Program-made: the position numbers and the translations under genes
Source: Balneola sp. EhC07
GTDB lineage: Bacteria > Bacteroidota > Rhodothermia > Balneolales > Balneolaceae
NCBI RefSeq assembly: GCF_001650905.1
Contig: NZ_LXYG01000014.1
Span: 62,001 to 126,000 of the forward strand
Length of the DNA: 64,000 nucleotides
Direction of reading: 5' to 3'
Part shown: piece by piece, positions 1 through 27,108 of the stretch
Layout: each line of letters starts with the position of its first letter
How positions within the stretch are numbered: position 1 is the first letter of the stretch
The notes under the pieces: generated by a model
Database searches by the model: none
Told to the model about the DNA's origin: nothing
Seen by the model: only the letters and a program-made list of their open reading frames with translations

Positions 1-2
1 GT

Positions 3-488: not shown

Positions 489-504
489 ACTAACAAACAG
501 AATA

Positions 505-1745: not shown

Positions 1746-1816
1746 AATTACAAATGTTTTTAGGTTATAGAAAGGTATAAAATTTATAAAAATCTCAACA
1801 GGTTTTGACGCGAAAG

Positions 1817-2887: not shown

Positions 2888-2900
2888 AAGAAGAATTTAA

Positions 2901-2921: not shown

Positions 2922-2937
2922 TATAGTTATATTTTTG
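2910..2937 (+). promoter_or_regulatory. Bacteroidota-type promoter of the restriction operon
   Basis: TTG at 2910-2912 is followed after 17 bp by TATTTTTG at 2930-2937, which matches the Bacteroidota -7 consensus TAnnTTTG with the usual spacing to -33. Transcription would begin about 2944, leaving a leader of roughly 16 nt before the ATG at 2960. No Shine-Dalgarno sequence is visible in it. Confidence 0.55.
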
Positions 2938-2959
2938 AATCGAATTAAAAATTTCAGAT

Positions 2960-6462: not shown

Positions 6463-6465
6463 CCC

Positions 6466-8880: not shown

Positions 8881-8885
8881 AATTG

Positions 8886-10028: not shown

Positions 10029-10921
10029 ACATTTGGCGACTTAACATTAAAACAGACTCGGTTGATATTAATCCAAGACAGTTTTGTTTTAATCAAAGCA
10101 TTATGGGGTTAGGTTGGTCAGTGGAATCAAAATCCAAGCATTTAGAATGGGATGAATATTATGAAAAGGCACATAAGAATTATAAAGAAGAAAGGAATGA
10201 TAAAGGCTGGTGGCGAGCTTTAAATGCCATTAAAAATCGGGTTAAAATTAATGATTTGTGCTGGTCTAGGGATTTAAATGGAATTTACTATCTAGGAAGG
10301 ATCACAGGAGAATGGCAATATATTAATGAGGAAATAAACCGAAAGGCAGATATAGTAAATGTTAGACCTATTGAATGGGTAAGAGTAGGGGAAAATGATT
10401 CAGTACCAGGTACTATCGTAAATAGATTCATAAGAGGCGGTACGCTAGAAAAGGTGAATGGTGCAACTACTTGTGAATTTTCTAAGTTTTTATATAATCA
10501 GCTTACTGATGATGAATTTTACGAATTCAAACATATAGAAGCGGATTTCTTTTCCTTAATACATTCAGATGATTGTGAAGATATTATAGGATTACTTCTT
10601 CAAGATATGGGATACCAACTTATTCCAAGTTCGTGCAAGAAAAGCACAGTGAACTATGAATTTGTTTTGAAGCATAAAAAAGATGGGCATAAAGCAGTTG
10701 CTCAAGTTAAAAAGGGGAAAGAAGATTTAATTATTGAGAATTATAAAAATCTTGACTGTAAGGTATATTTATTTACAACTAAAGGGCGATATATAGGCAA
10801 GTCTTTATCGAATGTATTTATAATCGATATTGAAAAAGTAGAAAGGTTTATTCGGAGTAACTGGAAAGTTTTACCTGATAAAGTCCAAACTTGGATAAAT
10901 ATTAGAGAATCATTGAATTAA
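10025..10921 (+). CDS. Accessory protein: PUA/EVE-like N-domain plus Mrr-like nuclease domain
   Basis: The protein has 298 residues. The N-terminal half (about 1-150) has features seen in PUA/EVE-like folds: an initial WRLNI strand, the DLCWSRDLNGIYYLGRI block and a VNVRPIEW strand. Such domains often bind modified bases; this is a weak fold guess. The C-terminal half (about 170-275) resembles Mrr-type restriction endonucleases: a helix EDIIGLLLQDMGY, then VNYEFVLKHKK and AVAQVKKGK. These could supply an E..QxK active site (Glu212, Gln227, Lys229) instead of D..ExK. It overlaps hsdS by 4 bp and ends 14 bp before hsdR, so it is an operon member, though it is not a standard type I subunit. It looks AT-rich compared with hsdR. 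Confidence 0.6.
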   Translation: MNIWRLNIKTDSVDINPRQFCFNQSIMGLGWSVESKSKHLEWDEYYEKAHKNYKEERNDKGWWRALNAIKNRVKINDLCWSRDLNGIYYLGRITGEWQYINEEINRKADIVNVRPIEWVRVGENDSVPGTIVNRFIRGGTLEKVNGATTCEFSKFLYNQLTDDEFYEFKHIEADFFSLIHSDDCEDIIGLLLQDMGYQLIPSSCKKSTVNYEFVLKHKKDGHKAVAQVKKGKEDLIIENYKNLDCKVYLFTTKGRYIGKSLSNVFIIDIEKVERFIRSNWKVLPDKVQTWINIRESLN

Positions 10922-10935
10922 AACACGAAATATAA

Positions 10936-13900
10936 ATGACCGACATTGGCCAAATAGAACGCAGCTCCCAGAATCGAATCGTACAACTATTCAGAGACCA
11001 ATTAGGTTACGAATATCTCGGTGACTTTCAGGATCGCTCAGGGAACGCCAATGTTGAGGAAGAATATCTGAGACCGTTTTTAAAGCAACAAGGTCATTCC
11101 CAAGCTAAAATTGATAAAGCATGCTTTGAGCTAAATAAAGCTACGGTTATACAAACCGAAGATTTATACGACAGTAATAAAGAGGTCTATAACTTACTTC
11201 GGTATGGAGTAGATGTACGAGAACAACAAGGAGAGCATAAAGAAACGGTAAAACTGATAGATTGGGAACATCAGGAGAACAATCATTTTGCCATTGCCGA
11301 GGAAGTAACGGTAGAGGGCAAAAACACCAAAAGACCGGATATTGTACTTTATATCAATGGAATTGCCGTTGGCGTGATTGAATTAAAGCGTTCAAAAGTA
11401 TCTATTGCAGAAGGAATTCGGCAAAATCTGGACAATCAATCAGAGAATTTTATCAAGCCTTTCTTCAACACCATGCAGTTGATAATGGCAGGCAACGATT
11501 CCGAGGGTCTCCGTTACGGTACTACCAAAACACCGGAGAAATACTATCTGAAATGGAAAGAGCCTTTTGACGGTGAAGCAGATTATGTGCTCGACAAGCA
11601 TATCCTTCAGCTGTGCAACAAAGAACGCTTGCTGGAACTGATCCATGATTTTATCCTGTTTGATGGTGGTACTAAAATTATTTCTCGTCCCCATCAATAT
11701 TTCGGAGTAAAAGCCAGTCGGGAAAATATTCGAAAGCGGGAAGATGGAATTATCTGGCACACTCAGGGAAGTGGTAAAAGCTTAACCATGGTTTGGTTGG
11801 CGCAATGGATTCGTGAGCAGGTGGAAGATTCAAGAGTGGTGGTAATCACGGATCGTACCGAATTGGACAAGCAAATTACTCGGGTATTTAATGATGCGGA
11901 AGAGCCCATGATCAGAGCAAAAAGTGGTTCCGATTTGCTGGATAAACTGAACAGCCATGAGTATCCGCTTATATCATCATTAGTACATAAGTTTGGTGGA
12001 GGAGAAGACGGAGATGTGGATCAGTTTCTAAACGATATTCAAAAACATCTTCCGGCAAATTTTAAAGCGAAGGGAGATATCTATGTATTTGTGGATGAAT
12101 GTCATCGTACACAATCCGGGAAACTCCACCGGGCAATGAAAGCCATTCTTCCCGATGCTATGTTCATTGGTTTTACCGGAACGCCTTTGTTAAAGCGAGA
12201 TAAGAAAACAAGTCTGGAAGTCTTTGGTCCATATATCCACACGTACAAGTTTGATGAAGCGGTGGAAGATAAAGTAGTGCTAGATTTGAGATACGAAGCC
12301 AGAGATATCGATCAAAGAATAACCGATCAGGACAGTATTGACGAGTGGTTTGATGCCGAGACGCGCGGACTCAACGATTACGCAAAAATGCAGCTCAAAA
12401 AACGCTGGGGTACGCTCAGGCAAGTATTGAGCTCAAAAGAACGACTGGCGAAAGTAACACAAGATATTTTTAAGGATTTCAGAGTACGACCAAGGTTAAA
12501 ATCCGGCGAAGGGAACGCTATGTTAGTGGCATCATCAGTGTTAGAAGCGTGTAAGTATTATGAGCTGTTCCAACAAACCGACTTGAAAGATCATTGTGCG
12601 GTTGTTACTTCCTTTGAGCCGAATATCAATGACATCAAAGGAGAAGAAACCGGCGAAGGTGAAACCGAGGAGCAACTAAAGTATCGGATTTACATGGATA
12701 TGCTGGGCGGAATGAAAACCGAAGAGTTTGAAGAGGCTGTCAAAAAACAATTTATCGAAGAGCCGGCGCGAATGAAGCTACTAATAGTGGTGGAGAAACT
12801 GCTAACGGGTTTTGATGCTCCACCGGCTTCCTATCTGTATATCGATAAATCCATGCAGGATCATGGTTTGTTTCAGGCAATTTGTCGTGTAAACCGATTA
12901 GACGATGACAGCAAGGAATACGGATACATCATTGACTACAAAGATTTGTTCAAAAGTCTGGAAGAATCCATCGAAGCTTATACAAGCGGTGCTTTTGAAG
13001 GCTATGACAAAGATGATGTAGAAGGATTATTAAAAGACCGCTATAAACAAGCAAAAGAACATCTTGACGATACACTGGATCAGGTTGAGGCGTTGTGTGA
13101 GCCTGTTCATCCACAAACTCAGAAAACTTTTTATGAATTCTTTGGGTGTGATTTTGAGGGTAAAACGGATGAAGAGATTAAAGAGGACGAAGAAAAAAGA
13201 ATTAAACTCTACAAGATAGTTTCCAGTTTAGTAAGAGCGTATGCTGATATCGCCAATGAAATGAGCCGGGCAGGATACACCGATCGGCAAGCTGCTCGCA
13301 TCAAACAAAGAGTGAAGTTTTTCTCAGACCTGAAAGAAGAAATAAAACTAGCCAGCGGAGATTACATTGACTTGAAGATGTATGAACCCGGTATGCGTAA
13401 TCTCATTGACATGTATATTGATGCAGATCATAGCAAGAAAGTGAGTAAACTGGATGATTTCACCTTGGTAGACCTTATTGTGAATGAAGGTTTGGAAGGA
13501 GTAGATGAGGCTACCGGAGGAGAAAGTAAAAAAAATCCGGAAGGTGTATCAGAGAAGATTGAGAATAATATGAGGAAAGTAATTATTCAGGAGCGACCGG
13601 GAAATCCGAAATACTATGACCGAATGTCGGCTTTGCTTCAAGATCTGATTGAACAGAGAAAGCAGGAAGCAATAGCTTATGCCAAGTATCTTGAAAAACT
13701 TGCTGAACTAGCCCGAAAAGTTAAAAGAGTGGATGGCCAGGAAGCGTACCCGACTTCAATTAATACAGATGGAAAAAAAGCTATTTATGACACTCTTGAT
13801 GGTGATCTGGAACTTTCTGTTACGGTAGATGAAACCGTTAAATATAATAGTAAAGACGGCTGGAGAAGTAATTCAATTAAAGAGCGTCAACTTCAAGGAG

Positions 13901-13977
13901 CGCTTTATAAGGTGCTTCCTGAAAATATTGAGTTAGATATGGTGATGGATGTAATACGGAATCAAGATGAATACTAG
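10936..13977 (+). CDS. hsdR: Type I restriction endonuclease motor subunit
   Basis: HsdR translocates DNA with ATP and cleaves away from unmethylated sites. The N-terminal nuclease core is visible as KRPDIVLYI (Asp135) followed by GVIELKRSK (Glu149, Lys151), a PD-ExK pattern. Superfamily 2 helicase motifs follow: P-loop HTQGSGKS (275-282), VFVDECH (384-390), GFTGTPLL, and QAICRVNRLD as motif VI. The C-terminal helical part (about 700-1013) would contact HsdM. At 1013 residues it has the usual length and all key residues, so it should be active. It overlaps the downstream metallopeptidase gene by 11 bp. Confidence 0.97.
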   Translation: MTDIGQIERSSQNRIVQLFRDQLGYEYLGDFQDRSGNANVEEEYLRPFLKQQGHSQAKIDKACFELNKATVIQTEDLYDSNKEVYNLLRYGVDVREQQGEHKETVKLIDWEHQENNHFAIAEEVTVEGKNTKRPDIVLYINGIAVGVIELKRSKVSIAEGIRQNLDNQSENFIKPFFNTMQLIMAGNDSEGLRYGTTKTPEKYYLKWKEPFDGEADYVLDKHILQLCNKERLLELIHDFILFDGGTKIISRPHQYFGVKASRENIRKREDGIIWHTQGSGKSLTMVWLAQWIREQVEDSRVVVITDRTELDKQITRVFNDAEEPMIRAKSGSDLLDKLNSHEYPLISSLVHKFGGGEDGDVDQFLNDIQKHLPANFKAKGDIYVFVDECHRTQSGKLHRAMKAILPDAMFIGFTGTPLLKRDKKTSLEVFGPYIHTYKFDEAVEDKVVLDLRYEARDIDQRITDQDSIDEWFDAETRGLNDYAKMQLKKRWGTLRQVLSSKERLAKVTQDIFKDFRVRPRLKSGEGNAMLVASSVLEACKYYELFQQTDLKDHCAVVTSFEPNINDIKGEETGEGETEEQLKYRIYMDMLGGMKTEEFEEAVKKQFIEEPARMKLLIVVEKLLTGFDAPPASYLYIDKSMQDHGLFQAICRVNRLDDDSKEYGYIIDYKDLFKSLEESIEAYTSGAFEGYDKDDVEGLLKDRYKQAKEHLDDTLDQVEALCEPVHPQTQKTFYEFFGCDFEGKTDEEIKEDEEKRIKLYKIVSSLVRAYADIANEMSRAGYTDRQAARIKQRVKFFSDLKEEIKLASGDYIDLKMYEPGMRNLIDMYIDADHSKKVSKLDDFTLVDLIVNEGLEGVDEATGGESKKNPEGVSEKIENNMRKVIIQERPGNPKYYDRMSALLQDLIEQRKQEAIAYAKYLEKLAELARKVKRVDGQEAYPTSINTDGKKAIYDTLDGDLELSVTVDETVKYNSKDGWRSNSIKERQLQGALYKVLPENIELDMVMDVIRNQDEY

Positions 13978-14674
13978 AAACTATCAGTTCACAGTATCCG
14001 ATATTCTTGTAGATGTAGTTCAAAAAGATATTGGGAATATGCATCTGGCGGTTTATCCACCAACGGGCAGAGTGCGAGTGTCTTCTCCATTGACTTATAG
14101 CAAAGAAAACATACGCTTATTTGTAGTATCGAAATTGACTTGGATCAAGAAGCATATCCGCGCTATGAAAAATCAGGTTCGGGAGCCGAGAAGAGAATTT
14201 ATTCAAGGAGAAAGTCACTGGGTAGAAGGAAAGCGATACCTGCTGAATATCATTGAAAAGGATGAAAAGCCCTGCGTCCATATTCGAAATAAGCAATATC
14301 TGGATTTGCAGATTCGCCCGGGAACAGAACGAGATAAGCGGGAAGAGATAATCCAGGAATGGTACCGGGAAAGACTTAAACGCAAAATACCTGAGCTAAT
14401 TGCAAAGTGGGAAAATCGCTTAAAAGTTGAAATTAGTGATTGGGGTATAAAACTGATGAAAACAAAGTGGGGTTCTTGCACGGTTGAAAACAAAAGAATC
14501 TGGATTAACCTTGAATTAGCTAAAAAGGAGTATGAACTGCTGGACTATGTAGTACTCCATGAAATGGCTCACTTGATTGAGAGAACACACAATGACCGAT
14601 TTAAAGCAGTACTGGATAATCATATGCCATCATGGAAAGGTAAAAGAGAGCTATTAAATGAGGTTGTGTATTAG
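13967..14674 (+). CDS. YgjP-type (DUF45) zinc metallopeptidase
   Basis: This is a 235-residue soluble protein. The zinc-binding motif is VLHEMAHLIERTHNDRF near residues 194-210, giving HExxH plus a downstream His, and KWGSCTVENKRIW precedes it as in this family. Its ATG lies inside the 3' end of hsdR, so it is translationally coupled. YgjP-like proteases frequently follow hsdR in type I loci, and I infer a role in controlling or recycling the restriction complex. Only 28 bp separate its stop from the stop of the convergent gene at 14703. Confidence 0.85.
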   Translation: MNTRNYQFTVSDILVDVVQKDIGNMHLAVYPPTGRVRVSSPLTYSKENIRLFVVSKLTWIKKHIRAMKNQVREPRREFIQGESHWVEGKRYLLNIIEKDEKPCVHIRNKQYLDLQIRPGTERDKREEIIQEWYRERLKRKIPELIAKWENRLKVEISDWGIKLMKTKWGSCTVENKRIWINLELAKKEYELLDYVVLHEMAHLIERTHNDRFKAVLDNHMPSWKGKRELLNEVVY

Positions 14675-14702
14675 CTTTTAACTCACCTTATCTTAACATG
14701 GG

Positions 14703-15191
14703 TTAAACACTCTTTATATGATCATATATTGATTTTATGTAATTATTAGTATGCATGCTGGGTTTTTGAACTTCTTCATGTTTAAGATCTGTTAACCCCG
14801 CTTTATCTAGGATGATCTTAATAGCTTTTATTTTTTCACTAATTAATGACTTCTCACCATTATCTAGAGAAGTTACATTTGGCATCAATGCAATCTCCAA
14901 AAGTTCCTCGACAGCAGAATCTAGATGACGTAGTAGTTTAGCTTGGGCAAGCTCTATTCTTTCTCGTCTGTTTTCTAGGATTCTTACTCCTATACTTTCG
15001 TCATAATCAGAAGCTCTAGTAATCCAGTTGTATTTAGAGCTCCATCTCTTTAATTGTGATACATAACTCTCAGGTTTGGTATACATTTGGCATACTTTCA
15101 GCATACTTCTAGAAGGACCTAGTTCTAAATAAGTAACAAAGAATTTATAAGCTAAGGATGACTCACTAGGGTATTTATTCCATGAATTCAT
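14703..15191 (-). CDS. Phage terminase small subunit-like protein
   Basis: The protein has 162 residues. The N-terminal 55 residues (SSLAYKFFVTYLELGPSRS, then a W-rich SQLKRWSSKYNWITRASDYD) match the pattern of terminase small subunits and related HTH proteins, in which a Trp-rich helix precedes a conserved RAxxYD. The remainder is helical. Phage satellites often encode a small terminase to redirect packaging, and it is the last gene of a leftward set that begins with the integrase at 18285. An alternative is a general HTH protein of mobile elements. Confidence 0.5.
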   Translation of the reverse strand: MNSWNKYPSESSLAYKFFVTYLELGPSRSMLKVCQMYTKPESYVSQLKRWSSKYNWITRASDYDESIGVRILENRRERIELAQAKLLRHLDSAVEELLEIALMPNVTSLDNGEKSLISEKIKAIKIILDKAGLTDLKHEEVQKPSMHTNNYIKSIYDHIKSV

Positions 15192-15196
15192 TTTAG

Positions 15197-15937
15197 TTAG
15201 GGTTGGTTGTTAAAGTTTTCATCAAGTATTTTTATGAACTTATTCCAATCGTGTGTTTCCCAATCAATATTTAAAACTAATTCACATCCTACTGTTACAA
15301 ATTGATCAATCTGTATTCTATTTTTTTTCCTAATCTTTTCTAATTCGGCAATCAATACATGCTCAGGATATTTTGCAATATGTTTTGGTATTCCTTTTAA
15401 TACCTTTTCCATAGCTGAGCTAATGCTATTGTTATCGGTATTGTTAGTGTTATTGGAAATGTTATTGTTAATGCCCCCTGACCTGGGCCTGGTCTGGGGC
15501 AGAGGAAGACCCGAGTAACCTTTCTTTTCTTCTTTGATAGCTTTATAAAAGGAAGGAATATTGATATGATTAGGATACGTTTCTATAAACTCTTCGAGTA
15601 AATTATGATATACGAGCAATTTATAACATGAGAGACCTAGATTGTTATTACCAGCTATTGTTGTCCAAGTGACTTTAATAAAATCCTTTATCCAGATACT
15701 ATTGTTATTCAGACTCCTTATTCTTTCTTTATCACAATTAATTTTATCTAAAAAGTTATTAATATCGATAACTGAATTACAATGAAATTCAGACAGTTTT
15801 GGACTATGCTCATATACTCCAGCGTTGTCACAATGGCAATTAATAAACCAATAGAATAGCTTTTCTGAAGCATCTAGTTCATTAAAATATCTGTAATCCC
15901 ATACTTTGATCTCAATCATTCTTCGTTTGGTATCCAT
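15197..15937 (-). CDS. Mobile-element replication protein (phage replisome-organiser-like)
   Basis: The protein has 246 residues. The N-terminus (IEIKVWDYRYFNELDASEK, then LFYWFINCHCDNAGVYEH) follows the pattern of phage replication initiators of the replisome-organiser type, where an early strand and winged helix are followed by an L.W..CDNxG motif. A low-complexity Asn/Thr linker (about residues 153-170) separates this from a C-terminal helical domain resembling a DnaD-type tail. It lies 5 bp upstream of the terminase-like gene and overlaps the preceding gene by 1 bp (TAATG). A role in excision-linked replication of the element is inferred. Confidence 0.5.
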   Translation of the reverse strand: MDTKRRMIEIKVWDYRYFNELDASEKLFYWFINCHCDNAGVYEHSPKLSEFHCNSVIDINNFLDKINCDKERIRSLNNNSIWIKDFIKVTWTTIAGNNNLGLSCYKLLVYHNLLEEFIETYPNHINIPSFYKAIKEEKKGYSGLPLPQTRPRSGGINNNISNNTNNTDNNSISSAMEKVLKGIPKHIAKYPEHVLIAELEKIRKKNRIQIDQFVTVGCELVLNIDWETHDWNKFIKILDENFNNQP

Positions 15938-16206
15938 TACTCGACCTCTCTAAATTTAAAATAGGCTTCATAAAAGCAATAGATGTCGATATAAGTGAGA
16001 TTTGGAGGTAAACCAGTAACAATTAGTCGAATAATTTCATCACTAATCATTAATTTATTCTCTAATTCAGCTATACTTTTGCCTAGATTATATAGATTGA
16101 AGAGTGAGTTAGAATTAGCTATTTTTAAAGCTTTATTAAATGATTTTTTTCGATTACTAAGAGGTTGTACTTTTGCGGGCGCAACCTCTTTTTTTATTGG
16201 CTCCAT
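15937..16206 (-). CDS. Small hypothetical protein of the integrated element
   Basis: The product has 89 residues: a basic N-terminus (MEPIKKEVAPAKVQ) followed by predicted helices and a C-terminal aromatic stretch (DIYCFYEAYFKFREVE). I recognise no family. Its stop shares one base with the ATG of the replication gene, and its start is 1 bp after the stop of the excisionase-like gene. It therefore belongs to the same leftward operon. Confidence 0.55.
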   Translation of the reverse strand: MEPIKKEVAPAKVQPLSNRKKSFNKALKIANSNSLFNLYNLGKSIAELENKLMISDEIIRLIVTGLPPNLTYIDIYCFYEAYFKFREVE

Positions 16207-16207
16207 T

Positions 16208-16504
16208 TTATTCTCCCATTTTATTTTTTGATTTAACTTTATGGGAGTTGAGAAAATTTTCTACTTCCTCAATATCATATCTAATAGTCCTTCCTGACTG
16301 AGAAAAAGTAATAAGCTCTTCATCTCTTAGGTATTGAATATGGCGTCTTGAGCACTGAAGTAATTCCATTACTTCTTCCGTGTTAAGCCATTTTTTACGT
16401 GTAGCTTTTCGTATAGCTTCTGGTAGAGATTTGGTTACAGTATGTTTAACAGCTTTTTCTATGATCTGTTCAAGATCTTCTTTTGTGGGTATGTAGGCAT
16501 TCAT
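16208..16504 (-). CDS. Excisionase-like helix-turn-helix protein
   Basis: The 98-residue protein has a C-terminal MerR/excisionase-type HTH: WLNTEEVMELLQCSRRHIQYL followed by the wing ITFSQSGRTIRYDIEEVENFL. This arrangement is typical of HTH_17 proteins on Bacteroidota integrative elements, where they act as recombination directionality factors or element repressors. It opens the 16504-14703 leftward operon. About 95 bp without a gene lie before it. Confidence 0.8.
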   Translation of the reverse strand: MNAYIPTKEDLEQIIEKAVKHTVTKSLPEAIRKATRKKWLNTEEVMELLQCSRRHIQYLRDEELITFSQSGRTIRYDIEEVENFLNSHKVKSKNKMGE

Positions 16505-16598
16505 TGCTTATATATTTGTTTCGAGTTATCGAATACAAATTCATAAATTGAATGCATCAAAAACAGACAATAAGTATTACAAAATCAGTAATACAATG

Positions 16599-17036
16599 TT
16601 ACTTTTTTGTATTATTCATATGATCGGTAGCGTTTTTTGCATTTTTAAAAGATTGAAAAGAGGAATATTTCTTATCCAAGCCTAATTCATTCATTCTTGT
16701 TGTAACGAAGTTGTATACCTTTTCCCAAGTATTATAAGACACCTTGTCTGAGTTGTATAAAGATTGACAAGTATTCCAGTAATTTTTGTTATTAAAACTC
16801 TGAATCTCATTTATCAACGCGTTTTGTTCTGAACTTAATAATGATCTTAAATATTCAACTTCAGCATCAACACATTCATCAAAATTTGGTGTATCATTTA
16901 AATATTTTAAATGCTGAGAAAGAAATTCAGATTTCTTTTTTAGCCAATAATTGATCTTATTTTCGACAGAATCTATTTTTTTGACTTCATCTCTATGTAA
17001 ATCAAAGTTAAATAGGGAATTGTTTTTAATATTCAT
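16599..17036 (-). CDS. Hypothetical protein upstream of the excisionase gene
   Basis: The 145-residue soluble, helical protein has no motif I recognise. It is rich in Asn, Lys and Ser and carries several Tyr and Trp residues, as often in proteins of AT-rich elements. It begins 13 bp after the integrase stop codon on the same strand, so it is probably co-transcribed with the integrase. Confidence 0.55.
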   Translation of the reverse strand: MNIKNNSLFNFDLHRDEVKKIDSVENKINYWLKKKSEFLSQHLKYLNDTPNFDECVDAEVEYLRSLLSSEQNALINEIQSFNNKNYWNTCQSLYNSDKVSYNTWEKVYNFVTTRMNELGLDKKYSSFQSFKNAKNATDHMNNTKK

Positions 17037-17049
17037 ATCAACTAATTGA

Positions 17050-18285
17050 TTAAAAAATTTTCTTCATTGCTTTATCCGCAAGTTCTTCATTTAGGCTTTT
17101 AAGATATTTTTGAGTTGTTTCAAGTTTACTATGTCTTAATGTTTGCATTAGCTCGTAAATACTTAGTCCGGATTGAACAGCATGTTGTGCAAAAGAATGT
17201 CTTGATACGTGAAATGAAACATTAGCATTTATTTTAGGTGCGCTAATATTACCCTTATCAATTTCATCATTTAATTTTATAACTATCTTTTTTAGGCTTT
17301 TATTAACCATCATATTTTTGGAGCTGATATCTTTCCGAAGTTTGATGGGATCTGAATAGTCTTTATGATTATTCAAAAAGGGAAAGATGAATGAATCGTC
17401 TTGTCCAGAGTACTTGCCTAATACTTCTTTCTGATAATCATTCAATTCTGTACTAAATGCTTTTTCATTCTTGTTCATTTGATAGTTTAGACGACCATCT
17501 TTAACGTTTTCCCATTTAAGGCAGCAAATATCACCAAATCTAATTCCGGCTGAGTAAAAGCTAAATAGAAATGCATTTTTTGTGTTCCAAAGCCATGTAT
17601 TTTTTTCTAGTTCTAATGCTTTAATACCCTCAATTTGTTCAATAGATAGTTTTATTTTTGAAGGAGGGTTACTATTAGTTACCATTTCAAAATTGAGAAA
17701 GGGGTCTATGTGAAGGAGGTGTTCACTAATAGCTCTTTTTATAACTTTTTTAATAGGTTGAAAAGTTTTCTTTACTGTAGATGCTTTATTCTTATGATCA
17801 TTGATTAAAAAATCTTGGAAACTTTTAAGGTATTCAGAATCAATCTGATTAAATCTTAGTAGTCTTTCTCCCTCAAACTCTTCAATTTTGTTAAATGCTA
17901 CTACACCTTGTACGTACTGAGAGTGCTTACCATTTCTCTGTTTTAATTTGAGGTAATCTTCAGCAAATGAAAAGAAGTCAGTTTCATCAATAACCTTCAA
18001 ACGGGCTTTTATTGATTTAGCATTATCCTTTCCATAGGTAATTAATTCGGCTTGGGCATTCTTAGCTTCGGATAATTTTATACTTAATGTTTTATTAAGA
18101 GCTTTATAGCTAGGATGAGTTTTTCGTATTACTTCTTTATCTGAGTTCCAATGTTTTTGAAAAACTGAAATACCTGTACTTAAATATTTATGTTTCCTGT
18201 TAGAAGTAATTCTAAGGTAAATTGGATACTCACCATTCTTTCTAGGCGAGTCGCTTCTAAGGTATAAATGAAAGGAGGTAGACAA
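17050..18285 (-). CDS. Tyrosine-type site-specific integrase
   Basis: The 411-residue phage/transposon-type recombinase has an N-terminal arm-binding domain (about 1-90, YLRSDSPRKNGEYPIYLRITS), a SAM-like core-binding domain (about 105-200) and a catalytic domain (about 215-411). The catalytic set is visible: Arg in AGIRFGDIC, HxxR in VSRHSFAQHAV, His in LRHSKLETT, and nucleophile Tyr in QKYLKS. The start is a TTG; I find no in-frame ATG nearby. Its 5' end lies about 160 bp from the tRNA-derived attachment sequence at 18444, the usual arrangement for an element integrated at a tRNA gene. Confidence 0.93.
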   Translation of the reverse strand: MSTSFHLYLRSDSPRKNGEYPIYLRITSNRKHKYLSTGISVFQKHWNSDKEVIRKTHPSYKALNKTLSIKLSEAKNAQAELITYGKDNAKSIKARLKVIDETDFFSFAEDYLKLKQRNGKHSQYVQGVVAFNKIEEFEGERLLRFNQIDSEYLKSFQDFLINDHKNKASTVKKTFQPIKKVIKRAISEHLLHIDPFLNFEMVTNSNPPSKIKLSIEQIEGIKALELEKNTWLWNTKNAFLFSFYSAGIRFGDICCLKWENVKDGRLNYQMNKNEKAFSTELNDYQKEVLGKYSGQDDSFIFPFLNNHKDYSDPIKLRKDISSKNMMVNKSLKKIVIKLNDEIDKGNISAPKINANVSFHVSRHSFAQHAVQSGLSIYELMQTLRHSKLETTQKYLKSLNEELADKAMKKIF

Positions 18286-18443
18286 ATGAAAAGATCGAAT
18301 TTATTTTTACTGTGTAACAAATGTAAAACAAATTTCAGATATAGTCACTTAAATTTGATAATCTAATATATACATTATTGATCAAATAGAGCATATATTG
18401 ATATTGTATCACACTTAATGAGCAATCATATGAATGTTGTTGT

Positions 18444-18462
18444 AATCCTACCCGGGGAGCCA
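18444..18462 (+). other. Attachment-site remnant: 3' end of a tRNA (probably tRNA-Asn)
   Basis: AATCCTACCCGGGGAGCCA is the end of a tRNA: part of the T loop, the 3' strand of the T stem (CCTAC), the acceptor strand (CCGGGGA), the discriminator G and CCA. The expected 5' T-stem partner GTAGG is missing; unrelated AT-rich DNA lies directly upstream. A terminator follows. This is what remains on the host side when an element integrates into a tRNA 3' end. The Asn identity rests on the discriminator G and the acceptor sequence and is an inference. Confidence 0.72.
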
Positions 18463-18476
18463 AGCGCAAGCGAAGT

Positions 18477-18515
18477 GCGAACTTTGAATCTTTTTTCAGA
18501 GTTCGCCTTTTTTTT
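18477..18515 (+). terminator. Intrinsic terminator of the former tRNA gene
   Basis: GCGAACTTTGAA (18477-18488) and TTCAGAGTTCGC (18495-18506) form a 12-bp stem with one G-U pair and a 6-nt loop, followed by eight Ts (18508-18515). It reads on the plus strand directly after the tRNA 3' fragment, so it probably ended the tRNA transcript before integration. Confidence 0.75.
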
Positions 18516-19085
18516 AAGCCCCTGCTTTATGTCTTCCCATTCTGAAATAAGGTAGTGATCACATATATAGTCGATCCTAAATTCACCACTTCCATTATTA
18601 AAGGATGAAATTTTCGACTCAGCTTCCCGTATAAGTGTTCGGATTAGGTCCTGTTGGACATTTTTTGGCTTGTCTTCAAGAATCTGATTGAATTCAGTAA
18701 GGATTTTATGATACTGGTCACCATTTAGTTGTTTTGAATTTTCTAAGGAGACTAACTCTTCCAGTTTTTCTTTAATTACTTCGTCTATTTCAGTAATCTG
18801 ATTCAATAGGGTTTCTAATTCCTCTTCCCAATGTTTTTTGAGAGCTGGATTCCTATTTTTTATTAAATCTTGACTAATAGCATCCTTACTTCTTATTAAT
18901 TGAAGTCTATTATTTCTAATCTGTTTTAATAGCTCTTTAGTTTGTTTTATTCGATGGCTCTTGGTTAAATGTAATATTACAGATTCATAGTACTGAATTG
19001 TTTGGTATTCATTATGTAGCTCCATTTTCATATTGGAAGCTGGAGCGTCCTTGACTCGGAAACATTAGATAGTGATTGAATGACT

Positions 19086-20414
19086 TTAGTTCATGAGTCG
19101 AATAAGGCGTTCAAATCGAGAATTGAGATCATTTGCAATGTCAGCAGTATGAATTCCAAGCATTTTGCCATTTCTTTTTACAGGTGTACCATCCACATAT
19201 ACGGAATCGATGTCACTGGGATTTGCCGTATTGGTTAGTGCCCTGACAGAATCTTTTGCTGGAGCCATTGCAAGAGAATCAGTTTTAACTAACATAAAGT
19301 CGGCTTGTTTTCCAGGCGTAATAGTACCTACATCATCAGAAATTCCAAGTACTCCTGCTCCGTTTTTTGTAACTAATGAAAGCAGCTTTGAATCTGATAT
19401 TTTTTTCTTTCCTAATTGCTGGTTGATACGAGCCGCAGCCATCATCTTAAACATATTAGGTCCTCCTGATCCGGCATAGTTATCAAATGAAAGACCGCAT
19501 TGAACCCCGTTTTTTTGGGCAGAAGTCAAAGGTATTATTTTTCGCATTCCATTTGCTGTAGAAGGAGAAAAACTGACTGGCGTTTGATGGTCAGCCAGCA
19601 CTTTCCAGTCTGCATCATCCCAGTGATAGCCATGGATGATCAAATTGTCTGAATTTAGGTAACCGGCTTTTGCATAATATTCTGCATTACCTTCATTGAG
19701 TACGTGCATACTGATCGGAAGCCTGGCCTCACGTGCCATTGCAATTTCTTTTTTAAGTAACGCAGGCGCTACATTAAGAAATTTAAAGAATGGGAAATTG
19801 GGATCAGGAGTTACATCGTTTCTTAATCCAAGCCTAAACGTCATTCGTTTGCTGGCAGAAGAATCTCTTAACCGAATAGCATCCGCAACATTCATAGGTT
19901 CCTCAGGTGACAACTCGTAATGGTAGCCGTAAGTGAATTGCCCCCTGAGCCCGGCATCTTCCATAGCCTGTAGTTCAGCATCTGCGTGTTCGGGGCTTGG
20001 CAGGTTATGCGCCCAGTTATTCATAGTTGTTACACCCGCTGACAACGCCTCAAGACTAGCTGCATACACCGCGGCATAAGAATCTTCAGGGGTGAAAAGT
20101 GGTCCCATTTTTCTGCAAAGTGCTTCATAACTCAATCCTGTAGCCGTTCCAAGGAAAGATTTCCATGGTGAATTCCACATGTGGGTATGTGTATCTACAA
20201 AACCAGGCATGGCAATATAGCCTTTGCCGTCTATTTGTGGGAGATCTGAATCAAGCTGATCCGGGATTTCATTTTCGGAGTATACCTTTGAAATAACCCC
20301 CTCATGTACTGAAAAAGATGCTTTAACAAGATAGCCAACATCCTGATCCATGCTTATCAGTCGAATGTTTGTGAGTATGAAATTCTTAGTAATTTGGTCA
20401 GTAGTTTTCATCAT
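19086..20414 (-). CDS. Amidohydrolase family protein (cytosine deaminase/TRZ-ATZ-like)
   Basis: The 442-residue metal-dependent hydrolase has the signature MPGFVDTHTHMWNSP (HxH metal ligands), followed by ISMHVLNEG and IIHGYHWDD with further His ligands. FSPSTANGM and GLSFDNYAGSGGPN occupy the places of the later ligands, including the Asp. The C-terminal beta-sandwich ends with GTITPGKQADFMLVK, typical of this superfamily. No signal peptide is seen, so it should be cytoplasmic. The substrate cannot be named. It follows the DJ-1/PfpI gene by 49 bp on the same strand. Confidence 0.88.
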   Translation of the reverse strand: MMKTTDQITKNFILTNIRLISMDQDVGYLVKASFSVHEGVISKVYSENEIPDQLDSDLPQIDGKGYIAMPGFVDTHTHMWNSPWKSFLGTATGLSYEALCRKMGPLFTPEDSYAAVYAASLEALSAGVTTMNNWAHNLPSPEHADAELQAMEDAGLRGQFTYGYHYELSPEEPMNVADAIRLRDSSASKRMTFRLGLRNDVTPDPNFPFFKFLNVAPALLKKEIAMAREARLPISMHVLNEGNAEYYAKAGYLNSDNLIIHGYHWDDADWKVLADHQTPVSFSPSTANGMRKIIPLTSAQKNGVQCGLSFDNYAGSGGPNMFKMMAAARINQQLGKKKISDSKLLSLVTKNGAGVLGISDDVGTITPGKQADFMLVKTDSLAMAPAKDSVRALTNTANPSDIDSVYVDGTPVKRNGKMLGIHTADIANDLNSRFERLIRLMN

Positions 20415-20463
20415 TTTCTACGTCTATTGTTTGAAGTTGTACCACGATTATCACCGGAGAGAT

Positions 20464-21600
20464 TTATTGCTCCATTTCATTTTTAAGTTCATTCGCAGTT
20501 TCTGAATCCGGGTCGATCTGTAAACTTTCTGACAGGTACTGTTCGGCTTGTTTTATATCACCATTCTTATAATGAATTCTTGCCAATTCCTCTAAGATTT
20601 GAGGATTGTTCGGTATCAATTCTGAAGCGATTTCAAGCAATGGAATTCCCTTGTTTTGGACTTCCTTACCCATGTAGCCACGGCTACCATAAATACTTAG
20701 TTCCGCGAGTAATCGCTCATCTAACAGCGAATCAGAGTCATGAGAATCAATGAATTGATACGTCTTTGTTTTGCCGTGCTGAACGGCATTTTGCACAACA
20801 CTGACAGTAAAGCTTAGTTGATCCCAAGGTCGTTGAGGTGGTGTTTTTCCCATTAATACTATCATATCTTCTGCTACTGAATAGGTGGAAAGAGGGTTTT
20901 GACCGGTAACCAAACGTCCATCAACAACAGACTGGTCAAATAGAGGCGGTGCTTCCTGATACGTTGCTCCTAACCGTGTCAATTCATCCTGCAACATAAA
21001 TGGATAAAACTCTGCGGCCTTCGAAAATAACTGCTCTTCCAAATTCGTAAATGAGCTTATATTTTTACCTTCGATTAAGCGATCCCCATTGGATAGTGTA
21101 ACGTTTAAAAGCGCACCTGGTCCATGACAAATGGCACCAACCACTCCACCTTGTTCATAAATAGAAGCAGTGAGTGAAGCGAGCTCGTTATTATTAGGAA
21201 AATCCCAGAGTGTTTTTCCTCCGGCGAAATAAATAGCATTGTACTCACTGGCATTAATCTGCTTAGGAGACAGAGTATTCTTTAGCTGAGCCATGATTTC
21301 AGGATTATTAATGAATGCTTTGTCAAGGTCACTAAGCTTTTCTTCAGGTTCATATTGAGTCATTCCACCATGTGGGCTCATGAAGTCCACAGTAAATCCA
21401 CTTTTAATGAACACATCAAAGGCTTGAGTTACTTCTGAAAGGGTGTATCCACCGGCAATCGTAGAATCTTTGCCGTCGATAGTAGCCTGAACCACTGTGT
21501 TATTGGTTACTACGATTAAGATCTGTTCCTGAGCTGCAACCGGAGAACTGTATAGAAGTGAAGTGATAAATAAGATGAATGGAAAAACGTACTGTTTCAT
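20464..21600 (-). CDS. Exported DJ-1/PfpI family protein with C-terminal TPR
   Basis: The start at 21600 is chosen because it yields a signal peptide (MKQYVFPFILFITSLLYS, cleavage near VAAQ); a frame open further upstream has no such feature. The DJ-1/PfpI domain (about 25-260) has the nucleophile-elbow Cys in GAICHGPGALL and the upstream FAGGKTLWDF loop, like Hsp31-type proteins. The C-terminal part (about 315-378) holds one to two tetratricopeptide repeats (NPQILEELARIHYKNGDIKQ). Periplasmic location and a stress-related hydrolase or chaperone role are inferred. It lies 49 bp upstream of the amidohydrolase and is divergent from the regulator at 21800. Confidence 0.82.
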   Translation of the reverse strand: MKQYVFPFILFITSLLYSSPVAAQEQILIVVTNNTVVQATIDGKDSTIAGGYTLSEVTQAFDVFIKSGFTVDFMSPHGGMTQYEPEEKLSDLDKAFINNPEIMAQLKNTLSPKQINASEYNAIYFAGGKTLWDFPNNNELASLTASIYEQGGVVGAICHGPGALLNVTLSNGDRLIEGKNISSFTNLEEQLFSKAAEFYPFMLQDELTRLGATYQEAPPLFDQSVVDGRLVTGQNPLSTYSVAEDMIVLMGKTPPQRPWDQLSFTVSVVQNAVQHGKTKTYQFIDSHDSDSLLDERLLAELSIYGSRGYMGKEVQNKGIPLLEIASELIPNNPQILEELARIHYKNGDIKQAEQYLSESLQIDPDSETANELKNEMEQ

Positions 21601-21799
21601 GAGATTTTCTGTTTGATTTAAGATTTCATTTGAAATATGTGAACTGAAAATGCTTACATCGTCCGAATGTATAGATTCGGACTCATGCCCATTCATCCCA
21701 TCTTAAATCCTGACTCAATCAATTTCTGTCATTGGATAGTTAATACCTGATTACCTATTATCATTTCTCTTGTAATCTCAAATTGTGTCTAAAGTTCTG

Positions 21800-23554
21800 A
21801 TGACCGACAAATCCGTTGCCATATTACCCTTTATCAATTTAAGTCCGGATAAGGATAATGAATATTTCAGTGATGGAATTACCGAGGAAATCATTCTGGC
21901 TTTGTCAAAAACAAAAGGACTGAAGGTGATAGCACGAACATCAAGCTTTATGTTTAAAGACAAGCATACAGATGTTCGGGCGATAGGGAAGCAACTTGGA
22001 GTAGCCACCATTCTGGAGGGAAGTGTCCGGAAATCAGGGATGAATGTGAGGATATCAGTTCGATTGGTTCGAACGATTGATGGATTTCAGATTTGGAGCA
22101 CGAAATTCGATCGCCAGCTTGATGATATCTTTAAGCTTCAGGATGAGATTAGTTTACTGGTGGCAGATAAAATCAGAGAAAATTTTGGTCACATTGAATT
22201 TCAGTCATCCTTAGTTTCTGTAGACTCCAGTAACTTTGATGCCTATGACTACTATCTGAAAGGTCGGTATGAGCAACTTAAATGGACAAATGATGCCTTA
22301 GTAAAAGCCATAGAGCACTATCAAAAGGCCATTCAGTTAGATCCTGAATTATTCAGGGCCTACTATGGGATTGTTCTCTGCTATACTTATATGCTTTTCT
22401 GGAGTTCAGGAGAAGAAGCCAGATCTGAAGTCTATGAGTATCTGGAAAAAGCTATGGAAGTGAACAGAGACTCCTTAGATTATCATTTAGCAAAGGCATC
22501 AACAGAAATGATGATTGAGTGGGACCACAGCAGTGCCATTGATCATTTTAAACATTCGCTGGAGCTTAACCCAAATAATGCCGAAGCTATTGAGGCCATT
22601 GCCGGGATGTATATCATGGTAGGGCAATTTGATGAAGCCATGATTCACATTGAGCACGCGTTGGAGATCAATCCTCTATCCCTTAATCATACCTTTATGA
22701 AGGGGAACATCTTATACTTCTCCGGGGAGTATGAGAAAGCCATTCAACAGATGAATAAGGTGTTGAAACAAGATCCTAAATGGATATTTGCTGTACAATT
22801 GAAAGCTGCTGCTTTGATTTTGACAGATAACAAGGCAGAGCTTGAAGAGATATTGGAAGAGTTTAGCGAGTTACCATTTATGGGGTACTATACTACTCTT
22901 AATCACTTGTACCATGATCAACCAATTTCAGAATATGAGCAGCCTTTCCTGGCTGATGAGAATATCCATCCCTGGCGGTTATATTTTCTTACACTGGAAG
23001 AAAATTATGATCAGGCTTTTAAAATGTTAGAAGAGGGACTGAATCAAAAGCATGGAAAATATATCTGCTTTAACTACGATCCTTTTTTAGTAAAATTAAA
23101 GACTTGTGAAGAGTATAATAACCTTCAAGAATTTCTTCCCAAAAAATTCCCTTTACTTAGCGATATCTACGAAGATACGAGTGATTCCAAACCACTCATT
23201 ACGGATGAGGAAGAACATAAGGAACTGATTGAAGCTCTTGATAAAAGCATGGTGGAAGAACAACTTTATCTTGATCCAAAACTTTCGCTCACCAATCTGG
23301 CGGATCATATAAATACGAGTTCCAATAAGCTATCCTGGCTAATCAATCAGGATAAAAAATCAAACTTCTATCACTACATCAACTCTTACCGATTGGAGCA
23401 TTTTAAGAAGATGGCTGTGCTGCCGGAAAATCAAAATCTGACCTTACTGGGCATTGCCTACGAATGTGGGTTCAATTCAAAAAGCACGTTTAACGATTAT
23501 TTCAAAAAAAGCACCGGCCTTACTCCCTTTCGTTGGTTGAAAGAACAGAAGTAA
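21800..23554 (+). CDS. TolB-like/TPR/AraC-type transcriptional regulator (copy 1)
   Basis: The protein has 584 residues in three parts. An N-terminal FlgO/TolB-like domain (about 1-135, KSVAILPFINLSPDKDNEYF) is followed by a run of TPR motifs (about 150-350, for example AIQLDPELFRAYYGI and ALEINPLSLNH). The C-terminal AraC-type HTH (about 485-584) ends GFNSKSTFNDYFKKSTGLTP. The ATG at 21800 is chosen over a GTG at 21785 because it matches the start of the paralogue at 33320. No membrane segment is evident. It is divergent from the DJ-1/PfpI gene and upstream of an acetyltransferase/oxidoreductase set it may control. Confidence 0.85.
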   Translation: MTDKSVAILPFINLSPDKDNEYFSDGITEEIILALSKTKGLKVIARTSSFMFKDKHTDVRAIGKQLGVATILEGSVRKSGMNVRISVRLVRTIDGFQIWSTKFDRQLDDIFKLQDEISLLVADKIRENFGHIEFQSSLVSVDSSNFDAYDYYLKGRYEQLKWTNDALVKAIEHYQKAIQLDPELFRAYYGIVLCYTYMLFWSSGEEARSEVYEYLEKAMEVNRDSLDYHLAKASTEMMIEWDHSSAIDHFKHSLELNPNNAEAIEAIAGMYIMVGQFDEAMIHIEHALEINPLSLNHTFMKGNILYFSGEYEKAIQQMNKVLKQDPKWIFAVQLKAAALILTDNKAELEEILEEFSELPFMGYYTTLNHLYHDQPISEYEQPFLADENIHPWRLYFLTLEENYDQAFKMLEEGLNQKHGKYICFNYDPFLVKLKTCEEYNNLQEFLPKKFPLLSDIYEDTSDSKPLITDEEEHKELIEALDKSMVEEQLYLDPKLSLTNLADHINTSSNKLSWLINQDKKSNFYHYINSYRLEHFKKMAVLPENQNLTLLGIAYECGFNSKSTFNDYFKKSTGLTPFRWLKEQK

Positions 23555-23747
23555 CTGCCTGATCTAAGGAACCTGGATTTTACTAGCCCAATTATTCTTC
23601 CCTCATTAAAGCAATGGTGACTGTATTTAACACCTGATCCACAAGTTCGGTTGCACAAATAAAGTCCGACTAGGTACATCCGAACGATTGGTGGAAGTAA
23701 AGACTCCATCTTATCACCGTAGATAAACTGAAATTAACTCTCTCGGT

Positions 23748-24380
23748 ATGTATGGTCCTGATAATGACACTTTATTTCCTTTAGCACATCATAAAAAGCT
23801 GTGTTTTCTGAAGAACCTTATTAATACTCCCGGTATTGAAGTAGGCGATTACACGTACTATGATGATCTGGAAGATGTTCAGAACTTCATGAAAAACGTG
23901 AAATATCATTTCGATTTCACTGGAGATACATTAAAGATCGGCAAGTTTTGCATGATCGCTTCAGGAGTCTCATTCATTATGAATGGAGCCAATCATCTCA
24001 CCGATGCTATATCAACGTATCCCTTTGCCATTTTCGGTAATGGATGGGAAGATGCTATGGAGAACAAGGCCTATCCAAATAAAGGCGATACGGTGATCGG
24101 TAATGATGTTTGGATTGGACATAATGCTACAATAATGGCCGGGGTAGAAATTGGGGATGGAGCGATCATAGCTACGAATGCTACTGTAGTTAGCGATGTG
24201 GAACCCTATAGCATAGTGGGTGGTAATCCCGCTCGTCTAATCAGATATCGATTCCCGGAAGAAAAAATCGCTGAGTTACTCAAGATAAGATGGTGGGATT
24301 GGGAAATATCTAAGATCACACAGAATCTGACCTATTTGACCGGTAATGACTTTACAAAGATCTCATCGATATCCGAATAA
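23748..24380 (+). CDS. CatB-related (Vat-type) O-acetyltransferase
   Basis: The 210-residue left-handed beta-helix acyltransferase carries hexapeptide repeats (VIGNDVWIGHNATIMAGVEI, then GDGAIIATNATVVSDV) and the family ending YSIVGGNPARLIRYRF. The N-terminal GIEVGDYTYYDD and the loop His in NGANHL are as in xenobiotic acetyltransferases of the streptogramin/chloramphenicol type. The true substrate is unknown and a resistance role should not be assumed. It lies 193 bp after the regulator at 21800 and 37 bp before the oxidoreductase start. Confidence 0.9.
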   Translation: MYGPDNDTLFPLAHHKKLCFLKNLINTPGIEVGDYTYYDDLEDVQNFMKNVKYHFDFTGDTLKIGKFCMIASGVSFIMNGANHLTDAISTYPFAIFGNGWEDAMENKAYPNKGDTVIGNDVWIGHNATIMAGVEIGDGAIIATNATVVSDVEPYSIVGGNPARLIRYRFPEEKIAELLKIRWWDWEISKITQNLTYLTGNDFTKISSISE

Positions 24381-24417
24381 GCCATCATTATATACTAATC
24401 CGATAATAAGAAACACT

Positions 24418-25392
24418 ATGAAATCTATAATATATGACACCTACGGTAGTCCGGATGTTTTGAAGCTGATCAAGACTAGCATCCCTAAACCCGACCGAAA
24501 TGAACTGTTAATAAAGGTTATAAGTAGTTCAGTTACTGCAGCTGATTGGCACTTGAGAAAAGCTGATCCCATTATGGTTCGATTTATGAATGGTCTATTG
24601 ACTCCAAAAAAGAAGGTTTTGGGTCAGGAATTTTATGGGGAGATCGTTGAAACAGGAAGGAGTGTAACCCGATTTAAGCCGGGAGATAAAATTTTTGGAA
24701 GTACCGGACTGAAGACCGGAGCTCACTCCGAATATATAGTAATGAGTGAGGATAGTGTGATCTCCAAGGCTGACGGAAATATTGAAAATGAATCACTGGC
24801 AGCTATTCCGATCGGGGGGATGACATCATTGTTCTTTCTGAAACAGGGGGGACTGAAAAAGGGGGATCGGGTATTAATAAACGGGGCATCAGGAAGCGTG
24901 GGTAGTTATGCTGTCCAGATAGCCAAAGCATATGGTGCTTCTGTTACCGGAGTTTGCAGCACCCGGAATGTGAAATTAGTGCGCGAGATCGGTGCAGATC
25001 AGGTTATTGATTACAAAAAAGAGAGGCTCGACAACCATCCCCATAGTTATGATATCGTTTTTGATACCGTAGGTAATCTAAGTTATAAAAGTGTTAAGCC
25101 GTTACTAAGCTCCGATGGGCACTTCATATCAACTGCATTTAATCTTGGATTGATGCAGGCAATGATGATGAACACTTTTCGGAAAGGTCATAAAGTGTAT
25201 ACAGGTGTCACAAAAGAATCCCGGGAACTTTTGGATGAGATCAAGAACCTGCTCAAATCAAAAAAGCTCAAGGCGGTCATTGAAAGAACATACAGCATGG
25301 AAGAAATAAAGGAGGCTCATATACATGCAGAATCAGGTCATAAACAGGGAAATATCATACTGGCAATTCAAGGAGGAACCACTCATGTATAA
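24418..25392 (+). CDS. NAD(P)-dependent medium-chain dehydrogenase/quinone oxidoreductase
   Basis: The start at 24418 (MKSIIYDTYGS) fits the family and avoids overlap with the acetyltransferase gene. The 324-residue protein has an N-terminal GroES-like fold (VLGQEFYGEIVETG) and a Rossmann domain with INGASGSVGSYAVQIAKA and GADQVIDYKKE. The structural zinc-binding Cys cluster is absent, as in quinone-reductase type members. It overlaps the next gene by 8 bp, so it is operonic with the DUF4386 and protease-like genes. Confidence 0.9.
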   Translation: MKSIIYDTYGSPDVLKLIKTSIPKPDRNELLIKVISSSVTAADWHLRKADPIMVRFMNGLLTPKKKVLGQEFYGEIVETGRSVTRFKPGDKIFGSTGLKTGAHSEYIVMSEDSVISKADGNIENESLAAIPIGGMTSLFFLKQGGLKKGDRVLINGASGSVGSYAVQIAKAYGASVTGVCSTRNVKLVREIGADQVIDYKKERLDNHPHSYDIVFDTVGNLSYKSVKPLLSSDGHFISTAFNLGLMQAMMMNTFRKGHKVYTGVTKESRELLDEIKNLLKSKKLKAVIERTYSMEEIKEAHIHAESGHKQGNIILAIQGGTTHV

Positions 25393-26065
25393 TGAAAAGA
25401 AAATCGGCCGAATTACCGGAGTGCTCTATCTGATCGTAATATGTTGTGCGGGATTCGCTCAGGGTGTGGCAAGAGAAACCGTATTTATTGCCGACGATGC
25501 GATCGCCACTGCCAATAATATTCTGGCTAATTCAGCATTGTTCAAATGGGGATTGGTTACTGACCTGATCGCTTTTTCTACAGATATTGCAATCTCAGTA
25601 TTGCTATACATGTTGTTGAAGTCGGTGAATAAACCGCTCGCATTGATCATGGCATGTTTCAGGTTGATAGCGCATCCGGGAGTAGCAACTGCAAATTTAC
25701 TTAATCATGCGGCGGCTCTTAACGTTTTGGAAAGTGATGGACTTGCCAGTCAATTTTCTCAGATTCAGCTAAGTGAATTATCCCTGTTTTTTATGGAAGC
25801 CCATCATTTGGGATATATTCTGGCGGGAGTAGCGTTCGGAATTCACTGTTTCCTGGTCGGCTATTTACTGATGAAATCAGTTCACTTCCCAACAGTTCTG
25901 GGCATACTCATGATCGGCGCCTCATTCGGTTACCTAATCGAAAGCTTTGGATTTATTTTATATCCTGAACACAAGGTTATTTTTGGGTGGGTCGTTGGGT
26001 TATCGGCAGCGCTGGGCGAAGTGACACTTTGTATTTGGTTGATGATCAAAGGGAGAAAAGTATGA
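25385..26065 (+). CDS. DUF4386 integral membrane protein (copy 1)
   Basis: The start at 25385 (MYNEKKIGRITGVLYLIVI) lies inside the end of the dehydrogenase gene. The 226-residue protein has about six hydrophobic helices and the family hallmarks: RITG before the first helix, a charged loop, and a central ALIMACFRLI segment. The function of DUF4386 is unknown. A related protein is encoded at 28863-29537. It overlaps the next gene by 4 bp. Confidence 0.85.
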   Translation: MYNEKKIGRITGVLYLIVICCAGFAQGVARETVFIADDAIATANNILANSALFKWGLVTDLIAFSTDIAISVLLYMLLKSVNKPLALIMACFRLIAHPGVATANLLNHAAALNVLESDGLASQFSQIQLSELSLFFMEAHHLGYILAGVAFGIHCFLVGYLLMKSVHFPTVLGILMIGASFGYLIESFGFILYPEHKVIFGWVVGLSAALGEVTLCIWLMIKGRKV

Positions 26066-26835
26066 GCATTCCAGTGAATAGTTTACATCATACATCCTGG
26101 TTTGTAATAATCATCTTAGCGATCATGACTTTTACAACCTGCCCGGTTTTAAGTCAGTCGAAGCAGCCAAACTTAGAAATCAAGGTTCATTTTGATGAAA
26201 GTGGGGATGACCTCACATATGCAGAAAAAACGGTCATTCAACAAGTTATTAGCTCTCAGGCAAAAGAGGCTGCTGCAATCCTTGAGAAATTACCGGCTAG
26301 TGTGATAATTAGAGTGCAAATTATTGACCGTGACCTACAGACAGTAGATGGAGTTACAGGCTGGACCAATGAACATGATCCTATTGGGAGAATAGTCGTT
26401 TTAATTTCGAAGGTTTATCCAGGTGGACCATTACAAGCTGCTAAAGATGGAATGAAAACCCTGATCTTTCATGAATTTCATCATCTTACAAGAGGATGGA
26501 GCATTAAACAAAACGAGTATGCCCAGGGGATTGACAATGCGCTCATAAACGAAGGATTGGCCGTGGTTTTTGCAGAAGAATACACAGGAATCCATCATGA
26601 AGTAAATGCTTATCCTGAAGAAGCACAGGAATGGGTAGAGGAAATTCTGGAACTACCCAAAGATGCGAATTATAGTCATTGGGTTTCCGGGGAGCACCCG
26701 GACGGAAGGAAATTTATAGGTTACCGTACTGGTAATTACGTGATCCGAAAAGCCATGAAGAGATCGGGCAAAAGTGTATTGGAATTAAGTGAACTGAGTC
26801 CGTCTGAGATCTTTGAAATGGCTGGATACAGTTAG
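26062..26835 (+). CDS. Secreted DUF2268-like putative zinc protease
   Basis: The protein has 257 residues. An N-terminal hydrophobic segment (about 12-32) ending near VLSQS serves as signal peptide. The zinc motif is LIFHEFHHLTRGW (HExxH), and the downstream ALINEGLAVVFAEEY supplies a Glu as in gluzincin-like DUF2268 proteins. The start at 26062 overlaps the DUF4386 stop (ATGA) and gives the signal peptide directly. Substrate unknown; location periplasmic by inference. Confidence 0.75.
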   Translation: MSIPVNSLHHTSWFVIIILAIMTFTTCPVLSQSKQPNLEIKVHFDESGDDLTYAEKTVIQQVISSQAKEAAAILEKLPASVIIRVQIIDRDLQTVDGVTGWTNEHDPIGRIVVLISKVYPGGPLQAAKDGMKTLIFHEFHHLTRGWSIKQNEYAQGIDNALINEGLAVVFAEEYTGIHHEVNAYPEEAQEWVEEILELPKDANYSHWVSGEHPDGRKFIGYRTGNYVIRKAMKRSGKSVLELSELSPSEIFEMAGYS

Positions 26836-26891
26836 GAGGTTTCTGGTTATCAGAAAAGCGTGGTTTTTCGCCAGCCGGCGGATCGCATGAT

Positions 26892-27025
26892 TCAAAAAGG
26901 GTAGATTTCGAGCAATTTTAGCCAATCAATTTCGAGTAAAAAACCAAAGCGACCTCTGAATATATCTTTAATAGGCTATTTTATCTCAAAATGAATTAGC
27001 AAGTTTGCAACTGCTGGGGACCTTT
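26892..27025 (-). pseudogene. Decayed duplicate of the neighbouring HTH-protein segment
   Basis: Read on the minus strand, this encodes PAVANLLIHFEIK, a stop (TAG where the other copy has TGG), then PIKDIFRGRFGFLLEIDWLKL and another stop. It aligns with PAVANLRIYFEIKWPINAL onward in the frame at 27109-27510. It is a diverged tandem copy with at least two nonsense changes. A degraded piece of the 34-bp palindrome family (CGCCAGCCGGCGGATCG) sits just left of it, at about 26869-26890. Confidence 0.6.
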
Positions 27026-27108
27026 AAGAGCATTTGTCAGCGGCTTGAGGAATCATTATTATCATCATCTACCCGATGAAGAAGCCTTGGATTATGCTGC
27101 TCAGATTA

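Follow-up and report, generated by a model that had tools for sequence, protein, structure and literature searches.

The window analysed here, a stretch of 64,000 nt (G000:C14:62001-126000, from a source genome of 3.62 Mb), carries a type I restriction operon, a tyrosine integrase gene and, upstream of the integrase, a tRNA 3′-end separated from the rest of its gene. A sequence-only reading of the window had taken this tRNA end as the attR of an integrated element extending to the left, and had suggested that the restriction operon may be cargo of that element. The features on the left side, assigned below to an element termed E1, are the following:

C14:60474-61814, just left of the window: Y-family polymerase of IMS/UmuC type (IMS domain), E1
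1-18443, no strand: window part of E1, which begins 2,843 bases left of the window at C14:59158 and has tRNA-Asn(GTT) as attL
1005-1820, minus strand: SRAP gene of E1
1817-2887, minus strand: WYL-domain regulator of E1
2960-14674, plus strand: defence operon of E1, type I restriction cargo
14703-15191, minus strand: terminase-small-subunit-like (TerS-like) gene of E1 (phrog_6299, E 3e-17)
16208-16504, minus strand: excisionase-like HTH_17 gene of E1
17050-18285, minus strand: tyrosine integrase of E1, 411 aa (Arm-DNA-bind_5, Phage_int_SAM_5, Phage_integrase)
18444-18460, plus strand: att core of 17 nt common with tRNA-Asn, at which E1 ends on the right and a second element, E2, has its left end (the seam)

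The 19-nt tRNA end (AATCCTACCCGGGGAGCCA) stands at 18444-18462 as had been reported, and it has one exact match in the whole 3.62 Mb genome, with 0 matches for the reversed 19-nt control sequence in the same exact search. Its T-stem 5′ partner is indeed missing, TTGTTGT standing before the core, and the core lies upstream of the integrase ORF at about the 160 bp previously given. The first 17 nt are the 3′-end of an intact tRNA-Asn(GTT) at C14:59085-59157, which ends with AATCCTACCCGGGGAGC and is the single tRNA-Asn among the tRNAs named by ARAGORN, while the last two bases (CA) of the 19-nt match belong to E2 and not to the old tRNA gene. The proposed leftward search for an intact tRNA with the same end thus succeeded 2.8 kb left of the window, bounding the element on that side, and therefore the integrase, the SOS genes and the restriction operon constitute one element, E1 (C14:59158-80443), of 21.3 kb between the intact tRNA and the seam core, with the type I operon wholly inside it. 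No left att copy, which would place the operon outside the element, was found near 14.7 kb, and no related genome with the operon but without the integrase region was seen: the only homologues of the first operon gene among the 296 phylum genomes searched had 29-32% identity and belonged to other genera. That the defence genes are carried by an insertion in a tRNA gene is confirmed.

With an intact tRNA at one end, a direct repeat of the tRNA 3′-end at the other, an intact tyrosine integrase beside the att and an excisionase-like gene, E1 is, as judged from its sequence, a tRNA-integrating tyrosine-integrase island and presumably a mobile one. Its layout, with the intact tRNA at attL and the tRNA end by the integrase gene at attR, is that of known islands of this kind, from which it differs in nothing essential, being an ordinary member. 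The geometry of integrase and core is supported because homologous integrases adjoin two other tRNA ends: in G001, whose homologue is 42% identical, 15 nt of a tRNA-Leu(CAA) end precede the integrase gene by about 140 bp. For a second copy in the source genome (contig C16, 37%), the end is that of tRNA-Arg(TCG) and lies about 450 bp upstream; the intact tRNA-Arg(TCG) is about 6.2 kb off, and the common core of 21 nt extends into the terminator.

The E1 operon encodes an N6-methylase/TRD/GHKL fusion, a 309-aa protein, HsdM, HsdS, PDC-S02, HsdR and a YgjP-like peptidase; SOS-type genes (SRAP and the Y-family polymerase) share the element with it, and besides the polymerase, SRAP and WYL genes there are two further genes plus one of 246 aa. 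Of the gene set of PICI-like phage satellites (integrase, AlpA/xis-like HTH, replication gene and TerS), integrase, HTH and TerS-like genes were seen in E1 and no gene was assigned to replication; the viral contigs searched held no relatives of P0001, P0002 or the recombinase tail described below. Additionally, the methylase/TRD/GHKL-ATPase fusion and the orphan protein of about 310 aa (2960-6462) are kept as a pair in G031, accompanied by HsdM, HsdS, two GmrSD-type genes, HsdR and YgjP, and in G042, with a WYL regulator and then AAA, PLD-like, radical SAM and UvrD genes; the pair seems to be a portable sensor module whose effectors can be exchanged.

On the right side, G007, a genome of the same genus with about 95-96% identity in this region, has the tRNA, the native terminator and then the sequence of window 27423 onward, with 96% identity over 9.3 kb. 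This empty site means that E2 is inserted too and that the composite island measures about 30.3 kb. The features of this part are the following:

18426-19031, minus strand: remnant of a large serine recombinase (LSR), coiled-coil end up to the att core, without the catalytic domain
18461-27422, no strand: element remnant E2, about 9.0 kb, not present in G007 at the empty site
18472-18514, plus strand: terminator hairpin formed by E2 LSR codons
26834-27020, minus strand: second LSR tail copy, frame-broken, inside E2
27112-27429, minus strand: far-end HTH tail of the E2 LSR, within ORF 27109-27510 (minus strand)
27423-27508, plus strand: far att (CCGGGGAGC) with the native tRNA-Asn terminator, where the chromosome resumes

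Three att copies can thus be read at the tRNA-Asn site, at the tRNA, at the seam and at the far end. Because of the third copy at 27423 and the empty site in G007, the position taken earlier for attR, the right edge of the island, is the seam between the stacked insertions E1 and E2. The simple model of one element ending at 18460 with ordinary chromosome to its right, to which the resemblance of core and terminator to an old tRNA end had pointed, is therefore highly improbable: in G007 the chromosome resumes only at 27423, and 18444-20500 is missing from the seven same-genus genomes, save for a weak match of 55 nt that G003 has in its tRNA region. The 'orphan terminator' noted after the core is also real as a hairpin with a T-run, but it is not part of the old tRNA gene, being LSR coding sequence of E2.

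E2 is the remnant of an LSR element family of Balneolaceae that uses tRNA-Asn. ORF 18426-19031 (minus strand) reads into the core, and the tail ORF emerges from the far core with the reading frame kept; E2 itself holds no catalytic domain, the coiled-coil end and the tail alone remaining, and the frame-broken second tail is the trace of an older stacked element. In the relatives G054, G028, G017, G098 and G100, LSR ORFs of 556-572 aa end antisense inside tRNA-Asn (for example, ..GSPGRIRTYDRSVNSRLLCH), and the corresponding tails lie on the same strand 22-45 kb from the LSR in all of these save G100. G130 has an LSR of 566 aa that ends at a second tRNA end just past the tRNA, and two tails, 30 and 49 kb from it and on its strand; degenerate LSR and tail copies lie about 3 kb apart in G047 and G040. 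Resolvase, Recombinase and Zn-ribbon domains were found by Pfam in both LSRs checked (G028, fused, and G054). When the LSR and tail ends are joined, ORFs of 647-652 aa result in five genomes, and the tails of close pairs are under purifying selection (dN/dS 0.05-0.15).

The gene also contains the putative attP, a dyad of fixed spacing (TTCGCA-15-GCTCC..TGCGAA). TTCGCA, 15 nt and GCTCC make up the left half in nine of nine cases, and GCTCC precedes TGCGAA or TGCGGA by exactly 21 nt in 15 of 16 right halves, so that the dyad centre falls within GCTCC, common to all half-sites but one. The crossover of an LSR is expected at the dyad centre, as with GCTCC here. Read along the tRNA strand, the LSR codons at the break give a terminator hairpin in each of the eight LSR-bearing sites examined, with z from about -6 to -9, and in the window the hairpin at 18472-18514 with its T-run reaches -19.9 kcal/mol (z -6.4), no shuffle being as good. 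It was found by single-sequence folding, whereas an RNAalifold alignment missed it because loop lengths vary among the tRNA-downstream sequences. The eight LSR-bearing sites all have CCA after the tRNA body, and the native-terminator sites that were read have none. The codons at the break could therefore form a terminator for the tRNA, which would presumably be used in vivo.

Based on these findings, we propose, and consider quite probable, that tRNA-Asn(GTT) received two stacked insertions, E2 from an LSR element with an in-gene attP and E1 from a tyrosine-integrase element. First, the LSR element of E2 would have recombined at GCTCC, the antisense of GGAGC in the tRNA end, leaving an LSR of about 560 aa that runs antisense into the tRNA and a conserved HTH tail of about 100 aa tens of kb off, and LSR codons would have given the tRNA its CCA and terminator. 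E2 would then have lost the catalytic half, and E1 would have gone into this tRNA end too, next to E2 on the near side, bringing its own copy of the tRNA end and a terminator. In the excised circle, LSR and tail would be joined in frame at GGCTCCCCG. The empty site, the single frame of LSR and tail and the dyad can be read directly from the alignments and ORFs; the order of insertion, the mobility of E1 and the whole LSR gene in the circle are what we infer from them.

Past the acceptor stem, the tRNA and the far end of the composite island share the same 63 nt, which speaks for a single 30 kb element, with the core at 18444 as the internal scar of an older event, and in G130, too, the tRNA with its native terminator is followed by a second tRNA end and the LSR. 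However, homologous integrases show this arrangement of integrase and core at two other tRNAs, and the seam retains 17 nt of the tRNA, more than the LSR core, making one element improbable. With two stacked insertions, a copy of the native terminator must have come with E1, and the common 63 nt are best read as the terminator copy carried by the attP of E1.

Judged from the sequence, insertion of the element appears to divide the LSR gene: the attP lies inside the reading frame and the gene is split when integrated, as with 'suicidal' integrases. The common frame of LSR and tail is not fully independent evidence, because the attP also forces fixed spacing. Alternatively, the tail may be a small gene of its own that starts at the att edge and encodes a DNA-binding protein, such as a directionality factor, with an LSR that always ends near the att. 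All tail copies begin with an NTG codon, which in most is a good start codon (ATG, TTG or GTG), and the HTH tail seems able to fold by itself, the AlphaFold model of an unsplit C-terminus having a pLDDT of 54 overall and about 88 over the HTH tail. However, two copies begin with CTG, the LSR frames have no stop ahead of the core, unsplit in-frame copies of C-terminus and tail, without the catalytic half, occur in G100 and G013, and plasmid genes annotated as recombinases hold similar HTH stretches (weak, E 0.3), so that we regard a separate tail gene as unlikely. A complete unsplit gene of LSR plus tail was found nowhere searched, and the LSR matches listed in the plasmid search covered only the N-terminal half. 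In other Bacteroidota families (L204-L208), genomes encode several small orphan proteins similar to the LSR tail, and the surrounding stretches that were retrieved contain neither a tRNA nor an LSR body; possibly these are solo tails at other sites. A Chloroflexi match (L167) was rejected as a relative, being a different recombinase with an ordinary HTH.

Therefore, we favour the split gene and think it likely that the Balneolaceae LSR elements are bacterial serine 'suicidal integrases', in which the HTH tail would be joined to the enzyme only in the circle or in tandem arrays, integration would switch the form of the enzyme, the same codons would serve as protein, attP half-site and replacement tRNA terminator, and defence islands would be moved at tRNA-Asn. 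A 2021 review describes 'suicidal' integrases as exclusively archaeal. The archaeal tyrosine integrases of SSV1, pTN3 and pT26-2 likewise have the att inside the integrase gene, which integration splits, and related elements could supply the complete enzyme (PMC8371274), whereas the Balneolaceae enzyme is a bacterial serine recombinase rather than a tyrosine recombinase of the SSV/pTN3/pT26-2 superfamily, keeps the catalytic domain whole and loses only the C-terminal HTH tail, and has an att half that doubles as tRNA terminator. It resembles the phiC31/Bxb1-type LSRs in the Resolvase, Recombinase and Zn-ribbon domains, the coiled coil and an attP dyad of about 50 bp, but its attP lies within the coding sequence and a tRNA 3′-end serves as its attB. 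Partial precedents are the integration-dependent immunity of mycobacteriophage BPs (PMC4557955) and phiRSS0 ORF13 (PMC3816273), wherein an in-gene attP also lets integration alter a protein C-terminus, though that of a repressor or regulator and not of the recombinase itself; phiRSM was ruled out, its attP lying between genes. A literature search, with most subscription papers outside its scope and hence weak evidence, returned no bacterial serine self-splitting integrase.

The tRNA-Asn LSR islands of G017, G098 and G028 (L199-L203) represent a defence hotspot of Balneolaceae, with PADLOC matches to pAgo, IetA, Dsr1, type IIG restriction and Thoeris-like systems in the three. A 16 kb island of G001 (L096:1061-17138) at the same tRNA-Asn, with the same LSR tail at its end and without its own integrase, appears, from a reading of its sequence, to carry metal-efflux genes.

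If the split gene is true, it would be a self-splitting recombinase outside archaea, of the serine class, with a direction switch built into a class of enzymes on which genome engineering widely relies, and whether loss of the C-terminal HTH locks integration or enables excision would become testable. The LSR family also suggests a way in which defence genes (matches to pAgo, type IIG restriction, Iet and Dsr1, and here type I restriction) may gather at one tRNA site.
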